Translations under genes and position numbers: made by a program
Part shown: in pieces, positions 12,818-20,610 of the stretch
Layout: the number at the start of each line of letters is the position of its first letter
Position numbering within the stretch: position 1 is the first letter of the stretch
The notes under the pieces: generated by a model
What the model was told of the DNA's origin: nothing
The model's input: the letters and a program-made list of their open reading frames with translations, nothing else
The model's database searches: none
NCBI GenBank assembly: GCA_007134525.1
Contig: SLKR01000070.1
Location: forward strand, 1-42,045
Origin: Bacteroidales bacterium
GTDB taxonomy: Bacteria > Bacteroidota > Bacteroidia > Bacteroidales > UBA7960
Reading direction: 5' to 3'
Length of the DNA stretch: 42,045 bases

Positions 12818-13597
12818 TTATTTTGAGCATATTATCTGATTGTTGAATTCAAGGTTAAGTCTATTGTAATGATCCCAGCCAACCTGGGACAGACCATTAC
12901 GATAAAAGGCCATAAGTCTGCTGAACTTTTCCCCAATGTCATTGGCTTCTCCAAATTCAATTATATGAGCTCCGTTTTTTGGAACCAGCTCGAATTTTCC
13001 GTTGGGAAGCATAATTATATGGTCGGTAAAGGCTCTCCAGAAATTGTCCCCGTGTATATATGATGCAAGCTCAAAAAGACCAGGAGGGCTGAACTCTTCC
13101 ACCCCGACTTTTATACCTGCTATGTTTGCACCTGCTGAGTAGTCAGTACGGATGCTTCCGGTTATCATCATTACCCTTGCAGTATATTTATCCGAAAGGG
13201 GAAACATATACCCCTCTGTGTCTATATAAAAACTCTGGTTATTGCTGTTTACAACCCTGGCTAAGGGGTCGCGCAGCAATGCATTGACCCTGAGCTCCCC
13301 GTTTATTGTCCGGTAAACTTCGGCACGACTCACAAAAGGGATATTATTGACCGCTTCATTGATTTTTTGGAGCAAAATGGGATCAATCCTCATTCCCTCA
13401 AGGGTGTCGAAACGCTGCACAAGTATGTTTTTTATGTCCCCTTCATCAATGAAGTAGTTCCCGCTTCTGCTTGCGACACTCACCTCAAGGCCCTGTGAAG
13501 TCTTATCCATGTTGCTGTTCAGCGAAAAGCCCATTGCGGTTACAATTCCTGTAAGAAGGCCGGAAAAGACTATTATGTGCAATATCTTTTTTATCAT
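12818..13597 (-). CDS. ftsQ: Cell division protein FtsQ
   Basis: Bitopic divisome protein of 259 residues. A short cytoplasmic start and one transmembrane segment (about 5-25, ILHIIVFSGLLTGIVTAMGF) precede a POTRA-like region (SGNYFIDEGDIKNIL, then NNIPFVSRAEVYRTINGELRV) and a beta domain with YIDTEGYMFPLS. FtsQ links the Z ring to the FtsL/FtsB/FtsI complex. Identification rests on the FtsQ-type DPLARV and DTEGY motifs and on its place between murC and ftsA. Its start overlaps the murC stop by 4 bases, suggesting translational coupling. Confidence 0.95.
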   Translation of the reverse strand: MIKKILHIIVFSGLLTGIVTAMGFSLNSNMDKTSQGLEVSVASRSGNYFIDEGDIKNILVQRFDTLEGMRIDPILLQKINEAVNNIPFVSRAEVYRTINGELRVNALLRDPLARVVNSNNQSFYIDTEGYMFPLSDKYTARVMMITGSIRTDYSAGANIAGIKVGVEEFSPPGLFELASYIHGDNFWRAFTDHIIMLPNGKFELVPKNGAHIIEFGEANDIGEKFSRLMAFYRNGLSQVGWDHYNRLNLEFNNQIICSK

Positions 13598-14958
13598 CCC
13601 AATGCCTTGTTTTTTAGAATCTGAGTTATCGCTTCAGGAAAACGGTCAATATCTCCCGCTCCCATAGTAAGCAGCACTTCAATGTTTTCGGAGGATATTA
13701 TATCCAGCAGTTCCTCCCTTTTACAAAGTACAGCATCTGTCACTTCTGATCTTTCCAGAAGCATGGCTGAGCTTACCCCCTCAATAGGCTCCTCCCTTGC
13801 CGGGTAGATATCAAGCAGTATCAGCCGGTCTAAAAGCGAAAGGCTCTTTGTGAAATCTCCGGCAAGGTCCCTGGTCCTCGAATAGAGGTGGGGCTGGAAA
13901 ACTCCTGTAATCTTTCTCCCGGGCCACAACTCACGTGCAGATGCTATACATGCCCTTATCTCTTCCGGGTGATGTGCATAGTCGTCAACATATACCGTGT
14001 TGTCTGTCTGAAGGCATAGCTCAAACCTTCTTTTTACGCCACTGAAGCTAAATAGCGACTTCTTTATTTCCTCGCTACCTATACCAGCCTGATCAGCAAG
14101 GGCTGCTGCACCGAGAGCATTTTCAAGATTATGCCTTCCCGGCTGCCCCAATGTGATATTGCTGATATTGAGCCTGCCCCTGAAGTCGGCAATGTACCGG
14201 CCGTTCTCTATCCTGATATTTTCCAGATAATAATCCGGCCCCTCTCCTGTACCGTATTCGAAAGTTTTGCCGCCATATCCAAGAAATCCTGATATCCCCT
14301 TTTTGCATACCAGACTGCCGCTGCCGGGCAGAAGTCCGGCGAAATTACGGAAACTGTTTACGATCTCCTGATAGCTTTCATAAACATCCAGGTGATCCTG
14401 GTCAATAGCGCTTATAAGAGCTATCCGGGGTGAGAGCTGAAGGAATGACCTGTCAAATTCATCCGCTTCAGCAATGAGCCATACCGGATCCGGTTCGCCA
14501 ATATAGTTGGTCCCGTAATTGGTACTTATTCCTCCAAGGAAAGCCAGACATGATTTGCCTGCCGATTTCATTATATGGGCAAGCATTGCACTGATTGTTG
14601 TTTTGCCATGTGTGCCGGCTACTGCAATAGTTGGTATCCTGGCAGAAAGCATCCCAAGTATTTCAGCTCTTTTCATCACAGGAATATCATGATCCCTGAA
14701 ATATCTGTATATGGCCGAGCTTTCAGGAACAGCCGGCGTCCGGATCACAATCTCAGGCTTTACCGCTATGCCTGCAGGGTCGTCGGAATAGTTTATCCTT
14801 ATACCTTCTTTTTCGAGCTTACGGGTAAGGGCAGAGGGGGTTTTGTCATAACCGCATACACTAACGCCCCGGGTATTGAAATACCTTGCCAGGGCGCTCA
14901 TGCCAATTCCTCCAATTCCCAGGAAGTAGACATGTGTTATTTGGTCAATGCGCTTCAT
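13594..14958 (-). CDS. murC: UDP-N-acetylmuramate--L-alanine ligase
   Basis: Adds L-alanine to UDP-MurNAc, the first amino acid of the peptidoglycan stem. The 454-residue protein has the N-terminal nucleotide-binding region FLGIGGIGMSALARY (12-26), the ATP-binding loop GTHGKTT (115-121), EADEFDRSFL in the central domain, DDYAHHPEEI and the C-terminal FQPHLYSRT. Length and motifs are complete, in contrast to the nearby murD. It is separated from murG by 55 bases and overlaps ftsQ by 4. Confidence 0.98.
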   Translation of the reverse strand: MKRIDQITHVYFLGIGGIGMSALARYFNTRGVSVCGYDKTPSALTRKLEKEGIRINYSDDPAGIAVKPEIVIRTPAVPESSAIYRYFRDHDIPVMKRAEILGMLSARIPTIAVAGTHGKTTISAMLAHIMKSAGKSCLAFLGGISTNYGTNYIGEPDPVWLIAEADEFDRSFLQLSPRIALISAIDQDHLDVYESYQEIVNSFRNFAGLLPGSGSLVCKKGISGFLGYGGKTFEYGTGEGPDYYLENIRIENGRYIADFRGRLNISNITLGQPGRHNLENALGAAALADQAGIGSEEIKKSLFSFSGVKRRFELCLQTDNTVYVDDYAHHPEEIRACIASARELWPGRKITGVFQPHLYSRTRDLAGDFTKSLSLLDRLILLDIYPAREEPIEGVSSAMLLERSEVTDAVLCKREELLDIISSENIEVLLTMGAGDIDRFPEAITQILKNKALG

Positions 14959-15013: not shown

Positions 15014-16153
15014 CTATATTCCTCTGTTTGTTTTGTTGATCATTTCTATTGCTGCCCCCGCTATCAGGTCTGCTGCATCCCTGTATGACATGCCTGCCAT
15101 CCTTTCCTTCAGCCGGTGCATTTTCTCCTTGTCGTGAATAAGCCCGCGAACAGTTTCACCAAGCTTTTTGACTGCTTCGCTGTCTTTTATCATTATCGCG
15201 GCGTGATGATTTACCAGGGCCATTGCGTTCTTGGTCTGATGGTCTTCGGCTACATTCGGCGACGGGATGAATATCGCCGGCTTGCCAACTGTACAAATCT
15301 CAGATACGGCTATGGCGCCTGCACGGCTAACCACCAGGTCCGCAACTGCATATGCATAGTCCATCCTGTCGATAAATGGCGCAATGTAAAGGCCTGAGCC
15401 ACCAAAGGCCGGGGAAGCCTCCCTGGCGTTACCATAATATGACCTCCCGGTTTGCCATACAAGCTGAATCCCCTCTTTGGCAAAGAGTTCAAGGTGTTCA
15501 GCAATTGCCTTGTTGATGGTAAGCGCACCCAGGCTGCCACCGGTTGAGAACAGTACCGGCTTGCCCTCCTGCAGTCCGAAATACCTGATTGCTTTTTCGC
15601 GCTTGCCTTCTGTCATCACCACATCCTGCCTTACCGGGTTACCTGTCAGGAATATCTTTTCCCTTTTGAAGTATTTTTCCATGCCCTCATATGCAACGCA
15701 AATCCTGTCTGCCTTCCTGCCAAAATACCTGTTGGTCAGCCCCGGATATGAGTTCTGTTCTTGTATCATTAAAGGGATATTCTGTTTAACTGATGCCCTT
15801 AATACAGGAGCACTGGCATATCCCCCGACTCCAATTACCAGGTCCGGCCTGAACCGTTTAACAATGGCCTTTGCTCCTGAGAGGCTTTTAATGATCTTAA
15901 ACGGAAGCAGCAGGTTTTTACTGCTCAGTCTGCGCTGGAGCCCTGCTATATCAAGCCCAATGATATGGAAGCCAGCCTGGGGCACTTTCTCCATCTCCAT
16001 ACGCCCCCTTGCACCCACGAAAAGGATTTGTGCATTGTACACTTTCCTTTTCAGGGCCAGGGCAATGGCTATTGCCGGAAATACATGCCCCCCGGTTCCA
16101 CCGCCGCTAATTATTATCCTGGGCGGTGCGGGCCGATGTAATAGCTTCTCCAT
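15014..16153 (-). CDS. murG: UDP-N-acetylglucosamine--MurNAc-pentapeptide-lipid transferase
   Basis: Membrane-associated GT-B glycosyltransferase converting lipid I to lipid II. The 379 residues carry the N-terminal G-loop SGGGTGGHVFPAIAIA (16-31), a second glycine-rich loop FSTGGSLGALTINKA and the UDP-GlcNAc-binding region VVSRAGAIAVSEICTVGKP with PSPNVAEDHQTKNA. The only good ATG, at 16153, makes the gene overlap the end of ftsW by 47 bases, a longer overlap than at other dcw junctions; no later start keeps the first G-loop. Confidence 0.98.
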   Translation of the reverse strand: MEKLLHRPAPPRIIISGGGTGGHVFPAIAIALALKRKVYNAQILFVGARGRMEMEKVPQAGFHIIGLDIAGLQRRLSSKNLLLPFKIIKSLSGAKAIVKRFRPDLVIGVGGYASAPVLRASVKQNIPLMIQEQNSYPGLTNRYFGRKADRICVAYEGMEKYFKREKIFLTGNPVRQDVVMTEGKREKAIRYFGLQEGKPVLFSTGGSLGALTINKAIAEHLELFAKEGIQLVWQTGRSYYGNAREASPAFGGSGLYIAPFIDRMDYAYAVADLVVSRAGAIAVSEICTVGKPAIFIPSPNVAEDHQTKNAMALVNHHAAIMIKDSEAVKKLGETVRGLIHDKEKMHRLKERMAGMSYRDAADLIAGAAIEMINKTNRGI

Positions 16154-17285
16154 TAATTATCTCTTCTTTTTCAATACTTCTGCTGACACTCAGTATTATA
16201 CCGATTGCCAGACTGGTGAACCATAAAGATGTGCCTCCCATGCTGACCAGGGGCAGTGGTTGCCCGGTAACCGGCAGCAGGTTAACTGCAACTGCCATAT
16301 TCAGTATGGCCTGGAATACAAGGCTGAAACTGAGCCCTGCTGCAAGCAGGGCCCCGAAGGTGCCCGGGCTCTTATGTGCTATCCTGATACCCCTGTAAAG
16401 CAGTATCAGATAAAAGAGAAGGACAATAAAGCCGCCAGCCAGGCCGTACTCTTCAATTATTATGGCGTATATAAAGTCTGAATAAGCCTGTGGCAGGAAA
16501 TTCCTCTGTGTTGAATTTCCCGGGAGCTTGCCCACAACACCGCCACTTGCTATTGCTATCTTTGCCTGCTCTGCCTGGTAGTTATCACTGGCCTCCTTGT
16601 TTGTAAAAGAGCTTATCCTGTTGTTCCAGGTTTCAATCCTGCCGCTCTGGGGTAATGCGGAAATAACCAGGATGAAAACTGCCAGTGCAAATATACCGGC
16701 TCCTGCAAGCCCCAGGATATAGCGAAATCTTACCCTTCCTATGAACATCAGCACCATACAGGTTACAAAAAGCATGGCTGCAGTTGAAAAATTTGCAGGC
16801 AGGATAAGTGCGCATATTATCAGTACAGGCAGGGTCATTGGAATAAAGCCCTGGTGCAGGTCTTTAATTACATCCTGCTTGCGGGTTATCAACCGTGCCA
16901 GGTACATTATTAGTGCCAGTTTTGCAAAGTCAGAACTCTGGAAACTTAAGTTTACTATCGGAAGCGTGATCCAGCGCTGTGCCTCATGAATTGCCGTACC
17001 CCTGATAAGGGTGAACAGAAGAAGTGGTATGGCAATGAATAGTGCAAGCTGTGATATTCGTGAGTAGTAAGGGTACCTTACCTTGTGGGAAAGATATACA
17101 AGGCCCAGGCCGAAAGCAGTTACTATTGCGTGCTTTATAAGGTAATATTCTGTATTGCCTGCCCTGAATCGGTATGCAAGGGTGCCGGTAGAGCTGTAAA
17201 CTGCCAGTATGGAGACAATATACAAAAAGAACACAACCACCCAGATGGTACGGTCGCCTTTAATATTTTTAAGTATTGCCTGCAT
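16107..17285 (-). CDS. ftsW: Lipid II polymerase FtsW (SEDS family)
   Basis: 392-residue polytopic membrane protein of the SEDS family, the division-specific peptidoglycan glycosyltransferase that works with FtsI. Diagnostic stretches are IHEAQRWITLP, SSDFAKLALIMYLAR, the large periplasmic loop with IAIASGGVVGKLPGNSTQRNFLP, DFIYAIIIEEYGLAGG and the C-terminal PVTGQPLPLVSMGGTSLW. Its 3' end overlaps murG by 47 bases and it starts 28 bases after the truncated murD. The RodA alternative is disfavoured by its position in the dcw cluster. Confidence 0.97.
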   Translation of the reverse strand: MQAILKNIKGDRTIWVVVFFLYIVSILAVYSSTGTLAYRFRAGNTEYYLIKHAIVTAFGLGLVYLSHKVRYPYYSRISQLALFIAIPLLLFTLIRGTAIHEAQRWITLPIVNLSFQSSDFAKLALIMYLARLITRKQDVIKDLHQGFIPMTLPVLIICALILPANFSTAAMLFVTCMVLMFIGRVRFRYILGLAGAGIFALAVFILVISALPQSGRIETWNNRISSFTNKEASDNYQAEQAKIAIASGGVVGKLPGNSTQRNFLPQAYSDFIYAIIIEEYGLAGGFIVLLFYLILLYRGIRIAHKSPGTFGALLAAGLSFSLVFQAILNMAVAVNLLPVTGQPLPLVSMGGTSLWFTSLAIGIILSVSRSIEKEEIINGEAITSARTAQDNN

Positions 17286-17313: not shown

Positions 17314-17862
17314 CTACAGCTCGAGTACTGCCTCCCTGAAACACTTGCCCCTGTCTGCGTAATTTTCAAAAAGGTCGAAACTCGGGCATGCGGGTGATAA
17401 CAGTACAACATCGCCGGGGCTTGCAATACAATAGGCTATGTTTACGGCCTCTTTCATATTGTCCAGCTCCAGCGGAACTCCAATGGTTCTTTTAAAGCTC
17501 CTGACAAGATTTGTGTTGTCCCGGCCAAGGCAAATAAGAGCCTTTACTTTTTCGGCTGCCAGCTCCCTGATTGCGCTATAGTCATTTCCCGTGTCCTGTC
17601 CGCCTGCGATCCATATAACCGGACGGTTCATTGATTCAAGTGCAAACCAGCATGCATTTACATTAGTCGCCTTGCTGTCGTTTATAAAGCTTATACCTTT
17701 AATGGTTGCGACCTCCTCCAGACGGTGAGCCACATTCGGAAAGCCCACCAGGCTCTCTTTTATGGCCTCTTTTCTGAGATCCGGAAAGTTGGAAGCGATA
17801 GTTTCCGCAATTCCGCTGTAAATATTTCTTTCCCTTACCAGTTTTTTCTCTATGCTATTCAT
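17314..17862 (-). CDS. murD: N-terminally truncated MurD (mostly C-terminal ligase domain)
   Basis: MurD (UDP-MurNAc-L-Ala--D-Glu ligase) normally has about 440 residues. Only 182 are present here. The product begins MNSIEKKLVRERNIYSG, joining directly at the point equivalent to the family's HN-x-x-N motif, and continues with INDSKATN (60-67), IAGGQDTGNDY (85-95), LGRDN and LLSPACPSFDLF (154-165). The UDP-binding N-terminal domain and the GTNGKTT ATPase domain are missing. Only 13 bases separate it from mraY, so they cannot lie upstream. The D-Glu-binding lysine expected in GG-x-D-K-G-ND (Lys348 in E. coli, from memory) is Thr91. A near-identical 15/16-base direct repeat flanks the junction. 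The frame is intact and correctly placed between mraY and ftsW, but it cannot encode a working MurD alone. It may be a deletion relic, a domain fragment with another role, or an assembly artefact. Confidence 0.9.
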   Translation of the reverse strand: MNSIEKKLVRERNIYSGIAETIASNFPDLRKEAIKESLVGFPNVAHRLEEVATIKGISFINDSKATNVNACWFALESMNRPVIWIAGGQDTGNDYSAIRELAAEKVKALICLGRDNTNLVRSFKRTIGVPLELDNMKEAVNIAYCIASPGDVVLLSPACPSFDLFENYADRGKCFREAVLEL

Positions 17863-17876
17863 GTAAATATTCTTTC
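17817..17876. repeat. Near-identical direct repeat at the murD truncation junction
   Basis: On the plus strand TGTAAATATTTCTTTC (17817-17832) and TGTAAATATTCTTTC (17862-17876) differ by one T. One copy starts at the last base of the mraY stop codon and ends at the A of the murD ATG. The other covers the codons where recognisable MurD sequence begins (ERNIYS). They enclose about 29 bases encoding NSIEKKLVR. Such a match within 60 bases is unlikely by chance and suggests a recombination or template-switch scar, though the mechanism is inferred. Confidence 0.6.
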
Positions 17877-19132
17877 TATCTTAATTTCAGTGTTATAACC
17901 GAGAATACAGCCAGAATTATCCCTATTATAAAGAACCTCTGGACGATTTTTGCTTCATGCAGCCCTTTAAGCTGATAGTGGTGGTGAAGTGGCGCCATTA
18001 GGAATATACGCCTTCCTGTGCCGGTTCTTTTTTTTGTGAACTTAAACCAGGCAACCTGGATTATAACCGAGAGGCTCTCTATGAAAAATACCCCGCAAAG
18101 TATCGGGATCAGCAACTCCTTTCTTATCACAATGGCGAAGACCGCTATTATGCCCCCCAGCGACAAACTGCCTGTATCGCCCATGAATACCTGCGCCGGA
18201 TAAGTGTTATACCAAAGGAAGCCAATGCAGGCTCCGACAAAAGCCGCTATGAATATCACCAGCTCTCCCGTATTTGGTATGTACATTATATTAAGGTAGT
18301 CAGCAAATACGACATTGCCCGAAACATAGGCCAGAATGCCCAGTGTAACCCCTATTATTGCTGAGGTGCCTGTTGCCAGGCCATCCAGCCCGTCGGTAAT
18401 ATTTGCTCCGTTTGAAACCGCTGCTATTATTAGTATCACCACCGGAATGAAAATCAGAAATGCCCATTTTTCATATCCTGGCCCGAGGAATGACAGGATT
18501 ACCGAGTAGTCGAACTCATTATCCTTGAAAAAGGGTATCGTTGTCTTTGTCGATTTAACTGACTCCATAGGGAATGGAGAGTCAGGACGGGCAACACCGT
18601 CGAGTTCGAGTATTTCGTCTGTGCTTACGAACTCAAGCGGGATCTCTGCCTTTTCCCTTATTACTGCACCTTCGTGAAAATAAAGGGTAGCACCCACTAT
18701 GATCCCCAGGCTGATCTGCCCCAGTATTTTGAACTTCCCGTGAAGACCCTTTTTGTCTTTGCGGAATACCTTTATATAATCATCCAGAAAGCCTATTGCA
18801 CCCAGCCATAATGTGGATATGATCATCAGCAGGATATAGATATTGTCTAGTCTAGCTAAAAGAATACTGGGGACTAAAATGGCGGATATCATTATAATAC
18901 CACCCATTGTGGGGGTTCCCTGCTTGCCGGTCTGACCTTCCAGGCCAAGGTCCCTGACTGTTTCCCCCACCTGCTTTTTGTTAAGTATGCCGATAATCCC
19001 CCTGCCGAATATCATAGTTATCAGAAGGCTTAATATCAGCGCCATTCCAGCTCTGAATGAGATATACTGGAAGACCCCCGTACCGGGTATACTGAAATTA
19101 TGGTCCAGAAATTCAAATAAATTATAAAGCAT
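17876..19132 (-). CDS. mraY: Phospho-N-acetylmuramoyl-pentapeptide transferase
   Basis: Polytopic enzyme making lipid I from UDP-MurNAc-pentapeptide and undecaprenyl phosphate. The 418 residues include [10 protein letters not shown], the aspartate motif [25 protein letters not shown] and [10 protein letters not shown], and the C-terminal histidine cluster [13 protein letters not shown]. An insertion of about 60 residues between transmembrane helices (around [15 protein letters not shown] to FKDNEFDYS) makes it longer than E. coli MraY, a known feature of Bacteroidota MraY. It starts 5 bases after murE. Confidence 0.98.
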
Positions 19133-19137
19133 CCTGT

Positions 19138-20610
19138 TTATGCTGCTAATATTCTTTTTAATTCTGCCTTATCGTCAAAAGGGAGTCTTGCCCCTTTTAT
19201 CTCCTGGTACTTTTCATGACCTTTACCTGCAACCAGTATTATGTCGCCCTGGCCGGCAATTGCACATGCAGCTGCAATTGCTTCCCTGCGGTCGGTCACG
19301 GTAATTTGTTTTGATTTCAGTGCGGGGTTGCTTTCAAGCCCCCTGATCATGTCTTTTATTATATCTTTTGGTTCTTCGAACCTTGGGTTGTCGCTGGTGA
19401 AGATCACCTTATCGCTGAAGCGGGCTGCAATTTCAGCCATCGGTGCCCGTTTTGTGCTGTCCCTGTTGCCTCCGCACCCCACCACTGTAATGAATTTTTC
19501 ATTTCCGGTGCGGAGTTCACTAATGGTTTCCATTACGTTTTTCAGGGCATCAGGAGTATGGGCGTAGTCAACAATGCCGGTTATTCCATCCCTGCCTCTG
19601 AAAAGGTCCAGGCGGCCTTCGGGTGGCCCGCATTTGCTTATAGCCGTGAGGAGGCTGTCGGAGTCAAGATCAAGAATACGCCCTGTAGCATAAACGGCAA
19701 GTATGTTATATGCATTGAAGGTACCCGTGAGCCTGCACCAGACATCTTTCCTGTCGATGGTCAGAAGCATACCGTCAAGGTTTTTTTCCAGTATCCTTGC
19801 CCTGAAGTCGGCCATTCTTTTGATGCTGTAGGTACTTACCCGTGCTTTGGTATTCTGAACCATTGTTTTGCCGTTTTTATCATCCATGTTGGTAAGGGCA
19901 AATGATCCGCTGCCAAGTTCGTCAAAGAGGATTTTTTTGCTTACGGAGTACTCTCTGAAAGTTTTATGGTAGTCAAGGTGATCGTGAGTCAGGTTTGTGA
20001 AAACGGCTCCTGCAAAGCTTAGCCCTGCCACTCTCGACTGTGCAAGTGCATGTGAACTTACCTCCATAAAGGCATATTCACAGCCTGCATCCAGCATTTG
20101 TGAAAGCAAGAGGTTTATTTCAGGTGCATCCGGTGTTGTATAGCGGGCCTCCACCTCCTTGTCGTGTACCATATTGCCTATGGTTGATATAAGTCCGCAT
20201 TTATAACCCATGCCCGAGAATACTCCGTGCAGCATCTTTGCCACTGTTGTTTTTCCGTTGGTGCCGGTTATCCCGATAAGTGCAAGCCCTAGTGAGGGAT
20301 TCCCATAATAGTTTGAAGCAATTATTCCGAGTGCCCTCCTGGAATCCTCCACCCTTATATAGCATACATCCTTGTTCAGGTGTTCGGGCATATGCTCGCA
20401 TACGACAGCAACGGCGCCCATTTCAATGGCACTGTCTATGTGCCTGTGGCCATCATCATTGCCTCCCCTGAAAGCGACAAACAGACTTCCCCCGGATACC
20501 TTCCTGGAGTCGAAAACCACCCCGCTCACCTCACAGTGAGTGTTGCCGGCCGTTTCCAATATCCCTGTCCGGTATATCAGTTCTGCAAGTATCCTGTTGC
20601 CTCTACTCAT
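19138..20610 (-). CDS. murE: UDP-MurNAc-L-alanyl-D-glutamate--2,6-diaminopimelate ligase
   Basis: Adds the third amino acid of the stem peptide. The 490-residue protein has the N-terminal UDP-binding domain ([17 protein letters not shown]), the ATP loop GTNGKTT (116-122), [21 protein letters not shown] and the C-terminal DNPR motif (407-410, [11 protein letters not shown]), which in characterised enzymes indicates meso-diaminopimelate as substrate. The cell wall is therefore predicted to be of the mDAP type. It lies 46 bases after ftsI and is followed by mraY after 5 bases. Confidence 0.98.

Follow-up and report, generated by a model that had tools for sequence, protein, structure and literature searches.

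In the dcw cluster of a Bacteroidales bacterium, the murD gene encodes only the C-terminal part of MurD, and comparison with related genomes, mostly from uncultured Bacteroidales, reads as the retention of a non-catalytic MurD domain after replacement of the enzyme. The gene was analyzed in a window of 42,045 nucleotides, the whole stretch of DNA under study, and was followed into other genomes of the order.

Structure of the short murD gene and its protein

The short murD gene is located between mraY and ftsW on the minus strand of the window (Table 1). As stated in the initial annotation, it forms an intact frame of 182 codons and is separated from mraY by 13 bases; the frame starts with ATG and contains no internal stop. 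Among the neighbors tested, the earlier description of the other cluster genes as full length holds for murC, murE, murG and mraY, each of which exceeds its NCBIfam cut-off; ftsW covers its model end to end but scores below the cut-off.

Table 1. Positions of the short murD gene, its sites and its neighbors in the window
Feature	Position	Strand	Description
murC	13594..14958	-	TIGR01082, 382.7 bits
murG	15014..16153	-	TIGR01133, 290.8 bits
ftsW	16107..17285	-	Directly downstream of short murD; TIGR02614, 278.5 bits, below cut-off of 337.5
Short murD	17314..17862	-	182 aa; TIGR01087 positions 277-439; Pfam PF02875 only
Thr91 codon	17590..17592	-	Aligned at the place of D-Glu-binding Lys348 of E. 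coli MurD
HRLE codons	17716..17727	-	Residues 46-49, start of C-terminal domain; His and Arg equivalent to E. coli His301 and Arg302
Gap from mraY stop to short murD ATG	17863..17875	-	13 bases, no trace of missing domains
mraY	17876..19132	-	Directly upstream of short murD; TIGR00445, 327.1 bits
murE	19138..20610	-	NF001126, 593.5 bits

The short protein matches the murD model TIGR01087 only at positions 277-439 of 441 (E 2.1e-49), with a score of 168.8 bits that lies below the cut-off of 211.95, and its Pfam content is Mur_ligase_C (PF02875) alone (E 7.2e-14). These two matches place its relationship to MurD far beyond chance. The protein lacks the three-domain architecture, and the P-loop columns of the alignment are empty. 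It consists of the C-terminal (glutamate-ligase) domain and the preceding ∼45 residues from the end of the central domain. Both front domains, about 260 residues, had been described as absent; the UDP-binding domain and the P-loop part are indeed gone, but the end of the central domain is kept, and alignment to the MurD protein of G023 gives ∼266 missing residues. The frame had also been placed with its start at the HN motif. The position of this motif corresponds to residues 12-13, and the frame begins 11 residues earlier.

A structure model of the short protein, generated with 25 sequences, has a mean pLDDT of 81.1 and is confident from approximately residue 50 and poor before it. In a Foldseek search with this model, the best matches are MurD structures (E 1.5e-14 to MurD), consistent with a MurD C-domain fold. 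The short protein resembles full-length MurD in the sequence and fold of its C-terminal domain and in its place between mraY and ftsW. It differs in that it has no UDP-binding domain and no P-loop and has lost the equivalent of Lys348, the residue that binds D-Glu in E. coli MurD (accessible part of PMC8788868); Thr91 occupies this position instead. On its own, the short protein cannot act as a ligase.

A split enzyme might form if the front domains were supplied by another gene and associated with the short protein, since Mur ligase domains fold separately. At an E-value of 0.001, front-domain matches in the same genome are confined to MurD2, MurC, MurE and two other Mur-like genes, which, together with the loss of the D-Glu lysine, largely refutes a split enzyme and makes it highly improbable. 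A tblastn search of 52 truncated loci with the N-terminal portions of 88 full-length MurD sequences found no remnant of the missing domains; the matches obtained were taken, by position, as paralogues (MurC and MurE) and mraY overlap.

Conservation of the truncated locus in the genus

Of 20 congeners, 19 carry the short murD gene, and the contig of the remaining one (G015) stops just after mraY. The congener genes are flanked by mraY and ftsW except at contig ends (G003, G009 and G010), and their proteins comprise 178-183 residues from the chosen ATG, with 55-73% identity to the window protein. A full-length murD at this locus, which the initial annotation regarded as the sign of an assembly collapse, is found only in other genera of the family (11 readable genomes; G026 is truncated) and in no congener with a readable locus. 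Five of the 80 named loci compared are truncated, and the murD frame is full length in Breznakibacter xylanolyticus and other cultured relatives.

The genome that contains the window is a draft of 156 contigs, which could point to an assembly or binning artefact. The same short gene recurs in the congeners and in other families, and these independent genomes include one with the locus on a 5.26-Mb contig and one with the locus on a 1.38-Mb contig. Because of this recurrence, the wrong assembly that was initially offered as an option is excluded, and the probability of any such artefact is negligible.

Several unusual frames were encountered at related loci. An apparent MraY fusion (619-codon frames in G016 and G019) was rejected, as several stops lie between both genes in the DNA. 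In G068:C61 and G106:C42, the MurD C-domain match lies in unusually long frames of 865 and 659 codons, respectively, which represent either fusion or overlap. In a Flavobacteriales MAG (L112, 4222-5546, + strand), murD occurs in two overlapping frames of 175 and 272 codons, and this split looks like a frameshift.

MurD2-type ligase and MurL homologue in the same genome

The genome of the window (G000; 2.69 Mb, 96% complete) contains one full murD-type gene elsewhere (C45:18238-19575, 318.8 bits), one of the options offered in the initial annotation. This gene encodes a MurD2-type ligase and adjoins a gene for a MurL homologue (NF041275, 203.9 bits, E 3.2e-60). The MurL score is far below the curated NF041275 cut-off of 700, which belongs to a Xanthomonadales equivalog; the genomic context is that of MurL, next to MurD2 in a genome in which a profile search gave no match to MurI. 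According to the accessible part of PMC8788868, MurD2 adds L-Glu, which is then epimerized by MurL, and the preference for L-Glu is governed by two differences from the E. coli enzyme, Glu in place of Asp182 and Arg in place of Lys348. The G000 MurD2 protein carries both determinants, Glu182 and Arg348. Across 21 MurD2 loci from 16 genomes, Glu182 is found in 20 and Arg348 in all 21. Given a full MurD2-type ligase beside a MurL homologue, the lost MurD step is probably covered by this pair, in agreement with the replacement option raised at the outset. From these sequence features, we infer that the predicted MurD2 L-Glu ligase and the predicted MurL epimerase work as a replacement pathway. 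An arginase/agmatinase-family gene (L001, 361-1425, + strand) also adjoins MurD2 in this genome.

Among 59 genomes including G000, a MurL match is found in 36 and MurI over the cut-off in 17; none has both, and six have neither. One genome (G028) combines a MurL match with a weak MurI-like match. Within the genus, 17 of the 20 congeners have MurL. Across the order, 393 genomes that are at least 85% complete were searched, and 126 gave a MurL match. No MurL match was obtained in 391 other genomes of the wider phylum, a draw that also holds some genomes from the same order.

In G111:C12, G340:C11 and G136:C329, and also in G203:C6 and G279:C16, the MurL match is located in frames of 885-949 codons. 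G111, G340 and G136 additionally have a MurD2 C-domain match on that contig, in a frame of equal size, and the long frames are probably MurD2-MurL fusions. Two genomes that are close in a tree of MraY and FtsW (G107 and G277; branch lengths 0.05 and 0.03) differ in MurL, one lacking and one having a match, which reflects a recent loss, a gain or a gap.

Association of truncation with MurL

For a screen beyond the family, a model (A1) was built from 25 truncated domains and applied to 80 of the 120 MurL-positive genomes outside the window's own family, which cover 40 families. MurI over the cut-off is found in none of these 80 genomes, and 18 have weak matches. The MurD C domain stands alone in 30 genomes from 17 families, MurD is full length in 45, one copy (G136) is cut by the contig end, and four genomes give no match. 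Of the latter four, G182 has a full-length murD front that runs off the contig, and the contig of G109 begins at murE; G054 and G157 have no murE-like match either, so their murD locus was probably not assembled. Total loss of the MurD C domain was thus demonstrable in none of the 80 MurL-positive genomes, the four without a match having a cut locus or no readable one. In 80 MurL-negative genomes of the order, MurD is full length in 77 and truncated in one (G049); it runs off the contig in G085, and G158 gives no match. At readable loci, truncation is found in 30 of 75 MurL-positive genomes vs one of 78 MurL-negative genomes (Fisher p 2.7e-10, kinship ignored). MurL is nearly invariant within clades and within supported pairs, and a tree-aware (paired) test of the link has no power.

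The near confinement of truncation to MurL-positive genomes would suit a short protein that serves MurD2 or MurL, and not the dcw-encoded machinery, as a structural or regulatory subunit. This role is unlikely: each MurD2 locus read encodes a complete ligase that already includes a C domain, the short gene remains between mraY and ftsW and not near MurD2, and G049 carries the short gene with MurD2 and MurL undetected. In G049 (98% complete; L153, 1971-2606, + strand), the short murD gene is accompanied by murE and mraY, and neither full MurD nor MurI is detected, which leaves an assembly gap or an unknown route as alternatives.

Full-length MurD also exists alongside MurL. All 57 full-length MurD proteins from MurL-positive genomes keep Lys115, Asn138, Glu157, Asp182, His183 and Lys198 as well as Arg302, Lys319, Thr321 and Lys348. 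A decayed full-length MurD, as expected if MurL had replaced MurD everywhere, was therefore rejected. With their active-site residues intact, these proteins are probably still D-Glu ligases, and replacement would be incomplete in some lineages. Intact full-length MurD is present, for example, at L024 and L170-L176, in genomes with MurD2 and MurL and without MurI over the cut-off. D-amino-acid transaminase (TIGR01121), an alternative source of D-Glu, gives matches in 26 of the 80 MurL-positive genomes, none of them over the cut-off. These matches fall in 23 of the 45 genomes with full-length MurD, one of the 30 with truncated MurD and two of the rest (Fisher 8e-6, uncorrected for phylogeny or genome size). 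A possible interpretation is that lineages with some access to D-Glu retain an intact MurD and that those without it truncate the protein.

Recurrence of the truncation

In a quick tree of MraY and FtsW from 121 genomes, the distribution of truncated and full copies requires 17 label changes, at least nine of which are forced by the well-supported (starred) branches alone. Well-supported groups of mixed state include G067/G173, G105/G199+G337, G082/G181+G262, G124/G214 and G153/G240+G308. The C-domain tree needs 14 label changes. In this tree, the truncated copies of G026, G243, G105 and G082 are closest to full-length MurD from the respective family, and those of G039, G153, G124 and G167 do not. 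Very diverged copies, found in families f2, f16, f34, f78 and f97, are placed on long branches. In-place regain of the lost domains is unlikely, and most label changes should therefore be losses; by both trees, MurD truncation is shown to have arisen repeatedly.

The position of the truncation is also recurrent. Near the truncation point, the full-length MurD proteins of the order share a conserved Met (52 of 57 from MurL-positive and 30 of 31 from MurL-negative genomes), and it aligns in 19 of 20 short copies of the genus and 25 of 32 other short copies. Judged by predicted start codons, the truncated proteins begin at or near this internal Met.

Selection and residue conservation in the short protein

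In four congener pairs (dS up to 1.2), the dN/dS values of short murD are 0.065, 0.129, 0.125 and 0.069, and those of its neighbors range from 0.033 to 0.100; frames were taken from stop to stop, so dN is slightly overestimated. These ratios show that short murD is under purifying selection and is kept as a protein, which supports the original remark that an intact frame is compatible with retention of a domain protein. Between G000 and its nearest congener (G012), short MurD is 74% identical vs 94% for FtsW, 92% for MraY and 82% for MurG, with dS saturated in this pair. The per-site entropy is 1.78 bits in truncated copies vs 1.17 in full copies. This faster evolution relative to the neighbors and the strong divergence in several families would fit a slowly decaying remnant that stays in frame through its operon position and translation coupling to ftsW. 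A remnant is quite unlikely in light of the dN/dS values well below 1 in all four pairs, the absence of internal stops across 52 frames, the retention of the same protein end every time and an age sufficient for the gene to be common to the whole genus.

Truncated copies have released the HN motif region, the Lys348 equivalent and a stretch around E. coli residues 414-423. The Lys348 equivalent is found in two of 20 genus copies and nine of 32 other short copies vs all 88 full-length copies. The kept positions include the equivalents of Asp317 (52 of 52 truncated copies) and His301 (49 of 52; E. coli numbering), two Trp residues and several hydrophobic residues; no newly conserved position was found in truncated copies. 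The conserved part looks like the fold core. The persistence of Asp317, which we take to be an ADP contact in E. coli MurD, and of His301 could indicate that the domain still binds a ligand, such as a nucleotide, and acts as a sensor. Such a sensor is very unlikely, given that the equivalents of Asn271, Lys319 and Lys348 are relaxed and the P-loop is absent.

Discussion

The evidence tips modestly toward an explanation in which MurL and MurD2 replaced the ligation and the MurD C domain was kept repeatedly for an older, non-catalytic job, proposed here to be adaptor function within the precursor machinery. Takeover by MurD2 and MurL would have made ligation by the dcw-encoded MurD dispensable. 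Sequence comparison and the trees show that the codons from the murD start to approximately the conserved internal Met were deleted, separately in many lineages, and the remaining C-terminal domain is maintained by selection even as the D-Glu site decays. The most likely reason for retention, we infer, is that, even before truncation, this part of MurD served a second, non-catalytic purpose. The adaptor may bind the products of neighboring genes, with MraY, MurG, FtsW or other Mur ligases as guessed partners; the adaptor role itself is likewise a guess. In the accessible parts of the respective sources, MurC-F are reported to bind MreB, MraY and MurG (PMC4929429), and MurG is proposed as a scaffold (PMC6420597). 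Counting against an adaptor are the faster evolution of the short protein than of its neighbors, its higher entropy, the lack of newly conserved positions and the very diverged copies in several families. The replacement step is weakened by the intact full-length MurD in 57 MurL-positive genomes and by MurL scores under the curated cut-off.

A broader reading, a real possibility that falls somewhat short of even, is that MurD of Bacteroidales, and perhaps all MurD, combines two proteins, with a D-Glu ligase followed by a C-terminal adaptor module that would have a role of its own in division or in the peptidoglycan precursor machinery. In intact murD genes, the internal Met may already act as a start codon that yields a separate C-domain isoform. 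If so, the repeated natural deletions of the ligase part would reveal a second role of MurD, which is usually studied as an enzyme and drug target. The natural series from intact MurD to the C domain only, repeated within one order, resembles a domain-deletion experiment performed by evolution. Through this series, the long-standing proposal that Mur ligases also have non-catalytic roles in complex formation becomes open to direct testing, and the C domain emerges as the relevant part.

The present data also extend the distribution of MurD2/MurL homologues to a Bacteroidota order, in which 126 of the 393 genomes sampled have them. Gammaproteobacteria, alphaproteobacteria and actinobacteria are the groups named for MurD2/MurL in the accessible part of PMC8788868, and Bacteroidota are not among them. 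In the open literature, as covered by titles and abstract beginnings and by parts of PMC8788868 and PMC5808125, with subscription papers mostly outside, no free-standing MurD C domain is reported. G000 resembles the MurD2/MurL pathway of Xanthomonas oryzae in that its MurD2-type ligase has Glu182 and Arg348, is encoded next to a MurL homologue and occurs without a MurI match. The X. oryzae pathway differs in that the accessible part of its description (PMC8788868) mentions no retained MurD C domain and in that the G000 MurL homologue scores below the curated cut-off.

The short MurD model has a weak fold match to the MurT/GatD amidotransferase (PDB 6h5e, E 9.5e-4), which serves as a precedent only. 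In MurT/GatD, a Mur-ligase-like protein works in a complex with another protein; MurT keeps the ATP-binding middle domain, whereas short MurD does not. A further fold match to the short MurD domain is found in chain O of a plastid RNA polymerase structure (8qma), in which the process is unrelated. This complex presumably holds a MurE-like protein, which would be a Mur relative serving as a structural part.
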